Assembly (NCBI RefSeq): GCF_000306785.1
Contig: NC_017955.1
Coordinates: 62,001-126,000 of the forward strand
DNA length: 64,000 nt
Direction of reading: 5' to 3'
Source of the DNA: Modestobacter italicus
GTDB taxonomy: Bacteria > Actinomycetota > Actinomycetes > Mycobacteriales > Geodermatophilaceae
The position numbers and the translations under genes were made by a program. The notes under the pieces were generated by a model, which did not search any database, was not told the DNA's origin, and saw only the letters and a program-made list of their open reading frames with translations. Positions 16,020 to 51,535 of the stretch are shown here, in pieces. The first letter of the stretch is position 1. Every line of letters begins with the position of its first letter.

Positions 16020-16144
16020 AGCCGGTGACTCGGTACACCGGTTCGTGGACGCAGGGTCACGCCATCCCGACCGCGTTCTCATGATCGGTCAAATACCGCC
16101 CGTTCCGGTTCTACCTCTCTTGTGCGGTGGAGGAGCGTGCACCC

Positions 16145-18955
16145 ATGCCGGAGTCCGGGAGTGGCGCTGCCCCGCGCCCTCCCGCGCGCCGGTCGTGGTT
16201 CCGCCGCTTGGTGGTGACCGCCGGTCTCACCACGGGCGGGTGCCTGGCCGTCGGTCTCGCAGCCGGGACCGCCGTCGCGGAGGACGTGCTCCCGGGCGAG
16301 CCGCTGGATTCCGTGGTGACGACGGTGGCCACGGCGGGGGACGTCGTGCCGAGCGATGTCGTGCCGCCGGCACCGACGTCGGCCGGTGCCGGGCCGGCTG
16401 ACCTGCCGCCGGTCGCCGTGGCGCCACCGACGACACCCCCCGTTGACCCGGCTCCGTCCGGGCTCGTCCCAGACGCGCCGGTGCCTGACCTGCCGGTACC
16501 TGATGTCCCCGTGCCTGATGTCCCCGTGCCTGACGTCCCCGTGCCGGACGTCCCCGTGCCTGACTTCCCCGTGCCGGACGCCTCCGTGCCGGACGTCCCC
16601 GTACCGGACGTCCCGATGCCGGACGCCTCCGTACCGGACGTCCCGGTGCCGGACGTTGCCGTGCCGCAGGTTCCCATGCCTGACCTCCCGGTGCCTGGCG
16701 GTCAGCAGCCGGGTCCCCCCACGGAGCCGGCGCCACCCGTGTCGGTGGAGCCTGTACCCGACCTGCCCTTGCCTCCGGTGACGGTGCCCGACGTCCCGTT
16801 GCCTCCGGTGACGGTGCCCGACGTCCCGTTGCCTCCGGTGGCGGTGCCCGACGTCCCGTTGCCTCCGGTGGCGGTGCCCGACGTCCTGTTGCCTCCGGTG
16901 GCGGTGCCCGACGTCTCCGTGCCGGACGTCCCGGTGCCTGACGTCTCCGTGCCTGACCTCCCGGTGCCTGACGGTGACCAGCCGGGTCCCTCCACGGAGC
17001 CGGCTCCTGTCGTGTCCCTGCCGCCAGGCGTCCCCGACGTCATCGTGCCGCCGATGCCGCTGCCGGACGTGCCGGATCTCCCGGTCCCGCCGGTCTCTGT
17101 GCCGGGGGTGTCCCTGCCGCCGGTCGTCCCGGACGTGGTCGTGCCGCCGGTCTCGCAGCCCGACCTCCCCGACGTGCCGGGTTTCCCGGACCTGCCGCTG
17201 CCGCCGGTCGTCCCGGACGTGGTCGTGCCGCCGGTCTCGCAGCCCGACCTCCCCGACGTGCCGGGTTTCCCGGACCTGCCGCTGCCGCCGGTGCGGGTGC
17301 CTCCGGTCGCGCTGCCGCACGTGCCGGACGTTGTGTTGCCGCCGGTCGTGGTCGTGCCGCCGTTCTCGCTGCCGGACGTCCCGGATGTCCCGGATCTGCC
17401 CGTGCCGCCGGTCGACGTGCCGGTTGTCCCGGATCTGCCGCTGCCGCCGGTGCGGGTGCCTCCGGTCGCGCTGCCGCACGTGCCCGAGGTCGTGTTGCCG
17501 CCGGTCGTGGTCGTGCCGCCGTTCTCGCTGCCGGACGTCCCGGATGTCCCGGATCTGCCCGTGCCGCCGGTCGACGTGCCGGTTGTCCCGGATCTGCCGC
17601 TGCCGCCGGTGCGGGTGCCTCCGGTCGCGCTGCCGCATGTGCCGGACGTTGTGTTGCCGCCGGTCGTAGTCGTGCCGCCGGTCGTGGTCGTGCCGCCGTT
17701 CTCGCTGCCTGACGTTCCGGATGTCCCGGACGTCCTGGACCTGCCGGTGCCGCCGGTGCGGGCGCCTCCGGTCGCGCTGCCGCATGTGCCGGACGTCGTG
17801 TTGCCGCCGGTCGTAGTCGTGCCGCCGGTCGTGGTCGTGCCGCCGTTCTCGCTCCCGGATGTCCCGGATGTCCCGGACGTCCCGGATCTGCCGCTGCCGC
17901 CGGTGCGGGTGCCTCCGGTCTCGCTGCCCGACCTGCCGGACGTGCCCGGTCTCCCGATGCCGCCGGTCTCGCTGCCGGACGTGCCCGAGGTCGTGTTGCC
18001 GCCGGTCGTGGTCGTGCCGCCGTTCTCACTGCCCGACCTGCCGGATGTCCCGGACCTGCCTGTGCCGCCGGTCGAGGCGCTGCCGGTCGTCCCGGTCGTA
18101 GTTGTGCCGCCGCTCCCGCTGCCCGACCTGCCGGTCATCGTCGTTCCGGTGGTCTCGGGCCCGACGCCGGTCGCGGTGCCGGACCTGACGGTCCCCGGGG
18201 TCGTGCTGGAGCCGGCCGTCGCGGTGCCCGTCGTTGCGGTGCCCGTCGTTGCGGTGCCCGTCGTTGCGGTGCCCGTCGTTGAGGTGCCCGTCGTCGAGGA
18301 GTCCGTCGTCCCGGCGCCGACGACCCCGGTGGACGCGGACCCGCCGGTGGTGGCACCGGTGGAGGCGGTCACGGTGGAGGCGGTCCCGGCAACCACCCCG
18401 GTGACTGCTGACCCGGCGGCGCCGGCTACCGAGGCAGCCACACCGGCGGCTGCGGCGTCCGTGCAGCCCGCCACCACCGCCGCCGCCGCGCCGACCTCCG
18501 AGGTGCCGAGCTCGGGCTCGACCTCGGTGACCGCGCCGGTCGTCGTCCCGGCGGCTGGTTCCTCCGGAACTGCCTCCGTGCTGGAGGTCAGCGACCTCTG
18601 CGTCGTGGCCGACTCCGCTGACCCGGGCAGCACCGACCGGTCGTCCACGCGGTCCGGACCCCCGTCGCACGCCCAGCGCACCGCGCCGGTCCCGGCCGCT
18701 CCGGCGAGCCCGGCCGCGCCGCACGACCCGCCGGCCCCGGCACCGCTGCCCGCCCCGGCTCCGACGGCGCCCGCGACTCCCGTGCCGCCGACGCCGACGT
18801 CCCCGGGCGGCGCCAACTGGTCGCCGCTCGGCGCCCTGCACGCCACGCTCCCCACGCTGCCGGTCCAGCCGGCGCTGGCGGACCTGGTCTCCACGGCCCC
18901 GGTCCGCACCCTCCAGGACGGCTTGCTCCCCGAGCCGTCCTCCTCCCCCGACTAG
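16145..18955 (+). CDS. Secreted Val-Pro-Asp repeat protein, unknown function
   Basis: 936 aa from the ATG at 16145 with GGAGGAG 9 nt upstream; a GTG at 16127 would overlap that site. The N-terminus has a Sec signal peptide (basic RRSWFRRL, hydrophobic VVTAGLTTGG..., likely cleavage near AVA-ED). About 600 residues are then degenerate repeats of the VPDVP/LPPV type, built at DNA level from tandem units of 30, 84 and 159 nt. An Ala/Thr/Val-rich region follows, then a tail with WSPLGAL and the last residues EPSSSPD. There is no LPxTG, catalytic domain or membrane anchor. It is probably an extended extracellular or wall-spanning protein. The C-terminal tail resembles that of the gene at 50681-51535. 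Confidence 0.8.
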   Translation: MPESGSGAAPRPPARRSWFRRLVVTAGLTTGGCLAVGLAAGTAVAEDVLPGEPLDSVVTTVATAGDVVPSDVVPPAPTSAGAGPADLPPVAVAPPTTPPVDPAPSGLVPDAPVPDLPVPDVPVPDVPVPDVPVPDVPVPDFPVPDASVPDVPVPDVPMPDASVPDVPVPDVAVPQVPMPDLPVPGGQQPGPPTEPAPPVSVEPVPDLPLPPVTVPDVPLPPVTVPDVPLPPVAVPDVPLPPVAVPDVLLPPVAVPDVSVPDVPVPDVSVPDLPVPDGDQPGPSTEPAPVVSLPPGVPDVIVPPMPLPDVPDLPVPPVSVPGVSLPPVVPDVVVPPVSQPDLPDVPGFPDLPLPPVVPDVVVPPVSQPDLPDVPGFPDLPLPPVRVPPVALPHVPDVVLPPVVVVPPFSLPDVPDVPDLPVPPVDVPVVPDLPLPPVRVPPVALPHVPEVVLPPVVVVPPFSLPDVPDVPDLPVPPVDVPVVPDLPLPPVRVPPVALPHVPDVVLPPVVVVPPVVVVPPFSLPDVPDVPDVLDLPVPPVRAPPVALPHVPDVVLPPVVVVPPVVVVPPFSLPDVPDVPDVPDLPLPPVRVPPVSLPDLPDVPGLPMPPVSLPDVPEVVLPPVVVVPPFSLPDLPDVPDLPVPPVEALPVVPVVVVPPLPLPDLPVIVVPVVSGPTPVAVPDLTVPGVVLEPAVAVPVVAVPVVAVPVVAVPVVEVPVVEESVVPAPTTPVDADPPVVAPVEAVTVEAVPATTPVTADPAAPATEAATPAAAASVQPATTAAAAPTSEVPSSGSTSVTAPVVVPAAGSSGTASVLEVSDLCVVADSADPGSTDRSSTRSGPPSHAQRTAPVPAAPASPAAPHDPPAPAPLPAPAPTAPATPVPPTPTSPGGANWSPLGALHATLPTLPVQPALADLVSTAPVRTLQDGLLPEPSSSPD
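16770..17950 (+). repeat. Nested tandem repeats within the secreted repeat gene
   Basis: Three levels are visible: about five 30-nt units (about 16770-16915), two near-identical 84-nt units (17121-17288), and three 159-nt units in exact register (unit landmarks at 17291, 17450 and 17609), followed by diverged copies. All lengths are multiples of three, so copy changes keep the frame. Confidence 0.85.
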
Positions 18956-49248: not shown

Positions 49249-50574
49249 TCAGCCGAGGGCGCTCGTCCGACGGCGGGGGAGCGCGATCAGCCCGAGGCCC
49301 AGCGCCAGGGCGAGCAGGCCGCCGAGCGCCAGCGCCGCGACCGGGGTGCCGGTGTAGGCGAGCCCACCGGACGTGCCGGCCGTGCTGCCGTCAGCGGTGA
49401 CCAGGACGCCGGACGAGGCCGACACCGTGCTGACCGCACCGCGCTGGTCGACGGCGCCGAGGGTGACCAGGTCGAGCGACGGACCCTGCAGGCCGGTGAC
49501 GGTCCCCGGAGTGGTCGAGCCGACCGGGGTGGTCGGGTCCACCGGAGCGGTCGGCCCCACCGGGGCGGTGCAGTCGCCGGTGACCTCGCCGAGGACGGCG
49601 ATCCCGTTGCCGCAGGCGGTCACCGGGACGTCGACGTCGACGACCGGCTGCCCGCCGGTGGTGGGCGTGGTGGCGGGGGTGGTGCAGTCGCCGGTCGCGT
49701 CGCCGAGGACGGCGATCCCGTTGCCGCAGGCGGTCACCGGGACGTCGACGTCGACAGCCGGGTCCCCACCCGGGCCGGGGGTGGTGGCTGCGGGAGTGCA
49801 GCCGCCGGTGGCATCGCCGAGAACGGCCAGGCCGTTGCCGCACGCGGTGATCGGGGCGTCGACGTCGACGGCCGGGTCCCCACCGGTGTCGGGGGTGGTG
49901 GCGGGGGTGGTGCAGCCGCCGGTGGCGTCGCCGAGAACGGCCACGCCGTTGCCGCACGCGGTGATCGGGGCGTCGACGTCGACGGCCGGGTCACCGTCGG
50001 TGTCGGGGGTGGTGGCGGGGGCGGTGCAGCTGCCTGTCGCGTCGCCGAGGACGGCGATCCCGTTGCCGCACGCGGTCACCGGGACGTCGACGTCCGCGAG
50101 CGTCCCGCCAGGACCAGAGCCGGACCCGGTCGCCGGCGGGGTGGCCGGGCCGGCCGGGGCGTCAGCGGTCGCCTCGCCGAGGACGGCGACCGCGTTGCCG
50201 GTGACGGTCACCGGCACGTCGACGTCCACGAGGGAGCCCGCCGAGGAGCCCGCTGCCGGCGCGGCCGGGACCTCCGCGTCGGGCTGGACGACGTCGATCC
50301 CGGCGACGTCCGCCGCGTTCCCGCCGATCGTGATCGGCACGGTCAGGCTGACCGCCCCGAGGTCGGCGGCGAGGGTGCCGTCGAGGGCCGGCAGGTCTAT
50401 CTCGGCCGGGGTGCTGCCGGTCGTCCCGAGGACGGCCAGGGCGTTGTCGCTGACGGTGACCGGGACGGTCACGTCGGCCAGGCCGTCGTCGGCGGAGGCG
50501 ATGCCGGTGCCGAGCGCCAGCAGGCCGCCGGTGAACAGGCCCGTCTGCAGGGCGCGCTTCATCCACACGTTCAT
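49249..50574 (-). CDS. Chaplin-like repeat surface protein with LAxTG anchor
   Basis: 441 aa from the ATG at 50574 with GAAGGA 8 nt upstream. A Sec signal peptide ends near ASADD. Eight repeats of the form VDVDVPVTACGNGIAVLGDATGDC-like (consensus V-x-V-x-V/A-P-V/I-T...GN-x-V/I-A-V-L-G) follow, separated by Pro/Thr/Gly linkers. The last five carry two Cys each, 13 residues apart, as in chaplin domains. Near residue 405 is LAYTG, then a hydrophobic helix and PRRRTSALG, a sortase class E (LAxTG) sorting signal. It is probably a wall-anchored, beta-rich surface protein. Chaplin homology is by motif only. Confidence 0.8.
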   Translation of the reverse strand: MNVWMKRALQTGLFTGGLLALGTGIASADDGLADVTVPVTVSDNALAVLGTTGSTPAEIDLPALDGTLAADLGAVSLTVPITIGGNAADVAGIDVVQPDAEVPAAPAAGSSAGSLVDVDVPVTVTGNAVAVLGEATADAPAGPATPPATGSGSGPGGTLADVDVPVTACGNGIAVLGDATGSCTAPATTPDTDGDPAVDVDAPITACGNGVAVLGDATGGCTTPATTPDTGGDPAVDVDAPITACGNGLAVLGDATGGCTPAATTPGPGGDPAVDVDVPVTACGNGIAVLGDATGDCTTPATTPTTGGQPVVDVDVPVTACGNGIAVLGEVTGDCTAPVGPTAPVDPTTPVGSTTPGTVTGLQGPSLDLVTLGAVDQRGAVSTVSASSGVLVTADGSTAGTSGGLAYTGTPVAALALGGLLALALGLGLIALPRRRTSALG

Positions 50575-50680
50575 GAGGGGTGTCCTTCTCGAGGGTGGTG
50601 CCGGACTGAGGGGGACCGGTCCTGTCCGAGGGACGGGCCGGGTGGTGCCGCAGGTCAGCGCGGAGCTGACGGCGGCGTGC

Positions 50681-51535
50681 TCAGTCGGGCGAGAAGGAGG
50701 GCTCGAGGACGGCAGGACGGGCCGGTCGGGAACCGGTCCCGGGCACCGCAGCCAGGACGCCGCCGAGCACCGTCCAGGGAGCGGAGGAGAGGTCGGCCGG
50801 CGTCTGGTCACCGCCGGACGAGCTGGCCCCGGCGGACGACGCCGGCACCGAGGCGGCCGGCAGGCCCGTCGGCGCGGCGGGGAGGACCGGGCCCGGCGTC
50901 GTCGCCGGCCCGGCCAGCACCACGTCCGTGGCCGCCGGGTCGGTCGACGCAATGGACACGGAGGACGTCGATCCGTCCGACAGCTGTGCGGCGGCCACGG
51001 CAGCCGCCGGGACACCGTCGCCGGCCGGGGCCGGGAGGGTCGGCTGCGCGGCGTCGGCCGGCCCGGTCACCGGGAGCGCGACCGGCAGGACGGGCGCGAC
51101 CACCTCGTCGACGACCGGGACGACCTGGTCCACGACCGGGACGACGACCTGCTCGACCACGGGCACGACGACCTGGTCCACCACGGGGACGACGACCTGC
51201 TCGACCACGGGCACGACCACCTGGTCCACCACCGGCACGACGACCTGCTCGACCGTCGGCGTCAGGACCTCGGTGACCGGCCGGACGACGGGGCTCACCG
51301 TCGGGACGACGACCTGCTGCGTCACCGGGGCCACCACCTCGCCGACCGGCACGAGCAGGTCGGAGGCGAGCGAGACCACCGGGCCGGGCGCGCGGGCGAC
51401 CTCGTCCGCGGAGGCGGTCGAGGCGGCCGAGCCCAGCAGCCACAGGCCGGTGCCGACGCCGGCGAGCACCAGCGCCCGGCCCGCGGAGCGGGTGAGGCGG
51501 CGTCCGGGAGCGACGGTGTGCGCGTGCTCGGTCAT
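50681..51535 (-). CDS. Secreted Val-Pro repeat protein with EPSFSPD tail
   Basis: 284 aa from the ATG at 51535 with GGGGAGG upstream. Signal peptide: RRLTRSAGRALVLAGVGTGLWLL, likely cleaved near ASADE. Residues about 65-140 are tandem VVVPVVEQ / VVVPVVDQ octapeptides. An Ala/Pro/Ser-rich part follows, then a tail with APWTVLGGVLAAVP and the end EPSFSPD. That tail resembles the end of the protein at 16145-18955 (WSPLGAL... EPSSSPD). There is no anchor. It is upstream of the chaplin-like gene, 106 nt apart, and probably co-expressed. Confidence 0.75.
   Translation of the reverse strand: MTEHAHTVAPGRRLTRSAGRALVLAGVGTGLWLLGSAASTASADEVARAPGPVVSLASDLLVPVGEVVAPVTQQVVVPTVSPVVRPVTEVLTPTVEQVVVPVVDQVVVPVVEQVVVPVVDQVVVPVVEQVVVPVVDQVVPVVDEVVAPVLPVALPVTGPADAAQPTLPAPAGDGVPAAAVAAAQLSDGSTSSVSIASTDPAATDVVLAGPATTPGPVLPAAPTGLPAASVPASSAGASSSGGDQTPADLSSAPWTVLGGVLAAVPGTGSRPARPAVLEPSFSPD

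Follow-up and report, generated by a model that had tools for sequence, protein, structure and literature searches.

The chaplin-like gene and its upstream neighbour

The window, i.e., the whole 64,000-nucleotide stretch of Modestobacter italicus DNA that was analysed, contains on its minus strand a gene (P0001) encoding a 441-aa protein, with an ATG at 50574 and a stop codon at 49249-49251. The protein is composed, in this order, of a signal peptide, eight units of ~25 residues, a Pro/Thr-rich linker, an LAYTG motif, a hydrophobic segment and an RRR tail (Table 1). The original prediction had described eight repeats, five of them with two Cys residues, and an LAxTG signal at 49249-50574; the ORF and a unit HMM showed both the coordinates and the description to be right. 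A longer mechanical ORF starting from 51015 was set aside in favour of the ATG at 50574, since MNVWMKR, or a sequence very close to it, opens the proteins of relatives and a ribosome-site-like GAGAAGGA lies before this ATG.

The units start at residues 33, 75, 116, 160, 198, 236, 274 and 312. Units 4-8 read like VDVPVTACGNGIAVLGDATGDC and contain two Cys residues with 13 residues between them; these Cys units start 38 residues apart. Units 1-3 contain zero Cys. The bit scores given for single units in Table 1 were obtained using an HMM built from the same eight units. The protein is rich in Val, Ala, Gly and Thr, and the hydropathy of its units is 0.65-0.78; Streptomyces-type stretches, which are longer, average 0.39 (n = 64).

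Table 1. Features of the chaplin-like locus (positions in the window)
Feature	Position	Strand	Basis
Gene of multi-unit chaplin-like LAYTG wall protein, P0001	49249..50574	-	ORF and translation, PF03777, relatives with similar start
Signal peptide, ~residues 1-28, ends IASA	50491..50574	-	Read from sequence; kept in relatives
Unit 1, Cys-less	50404..50478	-	HMM match, 38.3 bits
Unit 2, Cys-less, divergent	50278..50352	-	HMM match, 39.5 bits
Unit 3, Cys-less	50155..50229	-	HMM match, 40.5 bits
Unit 4, CGN-x11-C	50023..50097	-	Unit HMM
Unit 5, CGN-x11-C	49909..49983	-	Unit HMM
Unit 6, CGN-x11-C	49795..49869	-	Unit HMM
Unit 7, CGN-x11-C; best PF03777 stretch (residues 274-291)	49681..49755	-	Unit HMM, Pfam
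Unit 8, CGN-x11-C	49567..49641	-	Unit HMM
DNA tandem array under Cys units	49562..50094	-	Tandem Repeats Finder: period 114 bp, 4.7 copies, 87% matches, score 751
LAYTG sorting motif, residues 405-409	49348..49362	-	Sequence; motif kept in relatives
Hydrophobic segment and RRR tail of sorting signal	49252..49347	-	Sequence; helix in both predicted models
Putative partner gene P0002, secreted Val/Pro/Ala-rich repeat protein, 284 aa, C-terminal EPSFSPD	50681..51535	-	ORF; conserved position
Tail EPSFSPD of P0002	50684..50704	-	Only tail-pattern match in own genome; reversed control 0
Intergenic hairpin 1	50647..50676	-	MFE fold, changes on both sides of pairs
Intergenic hairpin 2	50617..50640	-	MFE folds

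Two runs of the AlphaFold2 program (12 and 26 sequences) gave models of P0001 that are of moderate confidence, with mean pLDDT of 60 and 63 and pTM of 0.58 and 0.52, respectively. In both models, each Cys unit has three or four short strands that turn close to CGN and LGD, and the linker is disordered; the strands and their stacking differ in part between the two. The first model aligned with beta-solenoids of the SufB/SufD type (Z up to 16.7, rmsd 4.9, 255 residues). Repeat proteins often align to beta-solenoids in this way. A Foldseek search of the PDB with the same model found no match at E ≤ 0.001, and a sequence search found no solved-structure relatives of P0001 at E ≤ 1.

Directly upstream of the chaplin-like gene lies P0002. 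The protein encoded by this gene has a GxWL-type motif in its signal peptide, an 8-residue repeat rich in Val and Pro, and the terminal sequence EPSFSPD (hereinafter, the SPD tail); searches of Pfam and NCBIfam gave no match for it at E ≤ 10. A 24/48-bp tandem array at 51093-51254 codes for the VVxQVVVP-type repeat of P0002. Searches of the locus found no sigma-70-like promoters or T-tract terminators, a result that is uninformative given the G+C-rich DNA.

The gap between the two genes is 106 bases long (50575-50680, minus strand) and contains two hairpins. Hairpin 1 folds in 30/30 Geodermatophilaceae sequences, 28 of which have a fully paired six-base stem, and shows two-sided changes at several pairs (T-A/C-G, A-T/G-C, G-C/C-G). 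According to RNAalifold analysis of 11 sequences, the covariation term is small (-0.19) and double changes are found at 5/20 pairs; one helix overlying the coding start was ignored. The MFE z-scores against shuffles, calculated for a set that leaves out L134, were modest (mean -1.7, 11/30 below -2). A MAFFT alignment of 26/31 intergenic sequences (without L127, L128, L133, L134 and L135) misaligned the hairpins and was not counted from. Rfam gave no match to the hairpin region at E ≤ 0.5. Since the shuffles show moderate extra stability only, the conservation of the hairpins is taken as suggestive.

Relation to chaplins and predicted wall anchoring

Comparison with the chaplin domain PF03777 had been named in the original prediction as a test able to refute it. 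According to hmmscan, the whole P0001 protein matches this profile with 31.1 bits (curated cut-off 21, E 2.1e-7); the score sums six weak stretches, the best of which spans profile positions 28-45 of 57 only. A six-frame PF03777 search of the own genome at E ≤ 0.001 gave no match, presumably owing to the shortness of single units. In addition, profile-profile analysis of 27 units against 17 Streptomyces-type chaplin domains showed similarity with a probability of 94% (E 1.3e-7) over 19 columns, in which VDVDVPVTACGNGIAVLGD of the units is aligned with VPVHVPVNVCGNTVNVIGL of the Streptomyces-type domains. An HMM of these 17 domains gave 42.5 bits for the whole P0001, compared with 10.5 bits for the best of 1000 residue shuffles (908/1000 reported at all) and -14.3 for the reversed protein. 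The result for the best single unit was far less clear (13.6 bits versus 8.0 for the best shuffle). P0001 is kin of the chaplin core.

The chaplin domain is defined by three GN motifs 12-13 residues apart (PMC13251363, PMC7766987). Each unit of P0001 contains one GN-type motif corresponding to the middle GN, the first and the third being absent, and the two Cys residues per domain that are typical of chaplins are found in 5/8 units. Kinship with chaplins, as expected in the original prediction, was borne out; the units are not full chaplin domains, and because they keep the middle GN only, the protein is named chaplin-like and not chaplin. The long chaplins ChpA-C of S. coelicolor share with P0001 secretion, an LAxTG-type signal, a VPV-x-x-CGN core, two Cys residues (in five P0001 units) and the Pfam match. 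The differences are that ChpA-C combine the sortase signal with two full domains bearing three GN motifs each, whereas P0001 combines it with eight short, partial units, and that the Cys residues are separated by 17 residues in Streptomyces-type domains versus 13 in the P0001 units. Also in contrast to S. coelicolor, an SPD-tailed neighbour is present in the M. italicus genome, and neither short chaplins nor paralogues were found there by the six-frame PF03777 search and the unit profile. In this 5.58-Mb single-contig genome, the P0001 query retrieved itself only. The unit profile gave seven matches at E ≤ 0.0012, all within P0001, and two further matches outside it (E 0.08 and 0.37) that were judged to be noise.

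Similarity also exists with CwpA and CwpB of Actinoplanes missouriensis, hydrophobic wall proteins dependent on a class E sortase, for which genetics shows a role in shaping colony growth; according to their authors, these proteins have no chaplin domains, and their motif is LPVTG (PMC13251363).

A class E sortase, whose absence would likewise have spoken against the original prediction, was found. Five sortase genes are present in the genome, and one of them (C1:335713-336351) passes the class E cut-off (NF033747, 251.5 bits versus 160). Three others pass the NCBIfam class F cut-off, and the fifth is class F-like but below it (108.1 versus 166 bits). The solved-structure relatives of the sortases include SrtE1 (5cuw). 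The class E sortases of S. coelicolor cut at LAxTG (PMC5148588). The class E substrate signature of P0001 is complete, with LAYTG at residues 405-409, a membrane helix and the basic RRR tail, and known families predict that it is exported and anchored. The class E cut-off is passed in 99/112 family genomes, and a strong class E match was found in 35/35 family genomes with a chaplin-like protein; the chance of this co-occurrence is 0.005 if genomes are independent, which they are not.

Distribution of chaplin-like and SPD-tailed genes

Matches to the chaplin-like protein were found in 35/112 Geodermatophilaceae genomes, the closest named copies being those of Modestobacter altitudinis and M. 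excelsi; the other 77/112 gave no match, so the lifestyle does not depend on this protein. The units were counted in 30 proteins (the own one and those of 29 loci, some incomplete) after L003 and L006, which are low-complexity matches in the own sortase loci, had been dropped. A signal-like start and LAxTG were detected by a simple test in 25 of these proteins, the others being interrupted by masked bases, an early stop or the end of a contig. The 182 units include 92 with two Cys residues, always with a spacing of 13 residues, 88 with none and two with one (one at a contig end, the other with C changed to W). The Cys pair is absent in 83/90 units at positions 1-3 and present in 85/92 later units; two exceptions among positions 1-3 come from proteins with a missing or masked start (L032, L034). 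The unit number in complete proteins ranges from four (L030) up to many more in Nakamurella, where the 834-aa N. silvestris form (L134:6001-8502) also ends with LAYTG. Among 27 complete proteins of the 33 loci L103-L135, 24 contain LAYTG, two LAWTG and one LASTG (the proteins of the other six are cut short or misread); the relative in L019 contains LARTG.

In the class, the unit profile at E ≤ 1e-4 matched 52/394 genomes and PF03777 matched 96/394. Chaplin-like proteins of other families often have several units, as P0001 does. They include short one-unit proteins with LAVTG and a 13-residue Cys spacing (L074, L076), long proteins with four to six Cys-paired units according to a simple pattern (L082, L084, L085, L088, L092, L093, L096, L100) and multi-unit proteins with LAxTG and mostly or wholly Cys-less units (L090, L097, L101). 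L074 and others resemble P0001 by the Cys-13-Cys core, and LAxTG is found in L074 as well. Unlike P0001, the units of these families keep an extra SG-rich segment ending with GNQ or GTQ (by eye), and the pattern used detected no LAxTG in L088, L092 or L100.

The statement of the original prediction that long chaplins carry two domains holds for ChpA-C of S. coelicolor (PMC7766987). Against such textbook chaplins eight units are unusual, but they are not unique: the idea of a unique eight-repeat architecture was rejected in view of the N. silvestris form and the multi-unit relatives in other families. The presence of relatives in several actinobacterial families indicates that wall proteins with several chaplin-like units are a more widespread kind. 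Chaplin-like genes outside Streptomyces, including those of organisms that lack aerial growth (e.g., Arthrobacter chlorophenolicus), were noted in 2013, and attachment was put forward as a possible older role of chaplins (PMC4255298); the accessible part of that article mentions no repeat architecture, partner gene or Geodermatophilaceae chaplin-like gene. No description of the multi-unit architecture or of the upstream gene was found in the accessible parts of the open-licence PMC literature.

An ORF ending with PD lies just upstream of the chaplin-like gene, on the same strand, in 33/36 named loci (L103-L138), and in 31 of the 33 the gap is 83-146 bases. For comparison, 38 of the 3089 ORFs of at least 60 aa in these loci end with PD. 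The three remaining loci are L113 and L136, which lie at contig ends, and L137, where the match is without the N-terminal part. The tail consensus is [DE]-P-[SA]-[FTSLY]-[SA]-P-D; single deviations from it occur three times, at two positions. Its last two letters are given by construction, the ORFs having been chosen by their PD end; at positions free of this selection, D/E is found at -7 in 33/33 and P at -6 in 32/33. The tailed gene reaches Nakamurella (L134) and Actinomadura (L138) and also lies upstream in L074, L100 and other loci of other families. None of the SPD-tailed proteins scanned reaches a Pfam or NCBIfam cut-off.

A search of the class with the DNA pattern of the tail gave matches in 34/394 genomes versus two control matches; 33 genomes remained after the match in G493, which does not end at a stop codon, had been set aside. 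PF03777 or unit matches are present in 33/33 of these genomes and in 101/394 overall, which is not independent evidence, because 32/33 belong to one family (f19); the exact tail match is absent in 22/52 class genomes with unit matches. Thirty loci were read out of 36 class tail matches (six were without a locus), and L140, having no true stop codon, was left out. In this search, which is blind to chaplins, units were found downstream on the same strand in 27/29 loci with a true stop, the locus of the window being one of them. The first unit begins 93-710 bases past the tail, mostly 200-400; L143 and L160 have no chaplin-like units within 1.5 kb. Gene position is better evidence for the pairing than the genome counts, and the linkage of chaplin-like and SPD-tailed genes extends across families. 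The tail pattern is absent in 39/39 genomes of group g38, which by chaplin content are probably Streptomyces, and in the 30 loci L036-L065 (1.5 kb each side).

In the own family, a chaplin-like protein was found in 23/26 genomes with a stringent tail match versus 12/86 without it. In six of the 23 (G041, G042, G046, G047, G050 and G056), the tail match falls in a second gene located away from the chaplin-like gene, the neighbour of which has a non-Phe tail.

Several further tails were observed. In L191, L193, L194 and L195, a tailed gene lies ahead of repeat proteins whose signal peptide is similar but in which no chaplin core is seen by eye; those of L191, L193 and L195 have Ser/Gly/Thr/Asn-rich repeats. 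Geodermatophilus loci L173-L177 and L179 contain a second, longer SPD-tailed gene, located on another contig or far off, with no such neighbour. The occurrence of the tailed gene without a chaplin-like neighbour suggests that the putative partner may serve several repeat proteins, or that the tail is a more general mark. In the window, a candidate ORF of 956 aa at 16085-18955 (plus strand) ends with PEPSSSPD, resembling the tail of P0002. ORFs near Cys-less multi-unit proteins of another family (L086, L097, L101) end with DTDVSPD or DTDTTPD, which may be a tail variant.

Proposed function of the gene pair

Taken together, these data make it rather likely that P0001 forms a class E-anchored, hydrophobic coat of beta units serving adhesion, with the SPD-tailed protein as a partner in its assembly. 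The class E sortase would cut LAYTG and link secreted P0001 to the cell wall, exposing three Cys-less units and five units with putative disulphides. In this reading, the units are shortened versions of the chaplin core whose short beta strands turn at CGN. By stacking or pairing, they probably build a surface coat that is hydrophobic and rich in beta structure and that would make the cells stick together and to mineral surfaces; the units may also form an amyloid-like layer, as suggested in the original prediction. Since no other unit-bearing protein or short chaplin was found in the genome, a single chain with many units would take on the task divided between short and long chaplins in Streptomyces. 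The SPD-tailed protein would be exported alongside P0001 and is probably a dedicated assembly partner. Judging from the sequences, the pair is probably a surface-coat and adhesion module.

The repeats could alternatively be a length-adjustable wall spacer or stalk that has its acting part elsewhere and plays no role in a hydrophobic coat. The strong variation of unit number among relatives with constant ends is consistent with this explanation, as is the DNA tandem array, which suggests easy gain and loss of units; the spacer is nevertheless considered unlikely, because past the signal peptide there are only units and the Pro/Thr-rich linker, with no separate head domain, and the unit residues and paired Cys are kept across genera. 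That the Cys-paired units are mainly wall material protecting against oxidation or drying appears improbable: the paired-Cys pattern and the dry habitats of Geodermatophilaceae point to it circumstantially, whereas three P0001 units and all units of the multi-unit relatives L090 and L097 in another family are Cys-less.

A true chaplin helping aerial growth or dispersal as in Streptomyces would account for the PF03777 match, the LAxTG motif and the class E sortase. This role is improbable for a protein with one GN per unit instead of the three expected, encoded in a genome where no short chaplin was found. In addition, Modestobacter is described as short rod-shaped, which agrees with the original prediction that the organism is not known for aerial hyphae, and strain CPCC 205119, a carrier of the locus (L129), as non-spore-forming cocci or short rods (PMC8602919). 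Finally, the Val/Ala/Gly/Thr-rich composition could suggest low-complexity repeats that arose by chance and have no function, but the probability of this is negligible in view of the shuffle control, the conservation across genera and the conserved gene pair.

The gene pair may be one of many copies of something broader, a proposal that is put forward tentatively: an undescribed system of non-Streptomyces Actinobacteria in which two genes direct surface assembly. In such a system, a secreted partner ending with [DE]-P-[SA]-x-[SA]-P-D and encoded directly ahead of a sortase-anchored repeat protein would guide or seed the assembly of the latter, the hairpins would set the ratio of the two, multi-unit chaplin-like proteins would be the commonest client, and the streptomycete chaplins would represent a branch in which the partner was lost.

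Chaplins are usually treated as tools of aerial growth, whereas here the chaplin core is multiplied in a predicted wall-anchored protein of rods without aerial hyphae. As a short signature, the SPD tail can be used to search for such surface systems. P0001 and its putative partner offer a direct way to test whether attachment preceded aerial growth, a possibility stated previously (PMC4255298).
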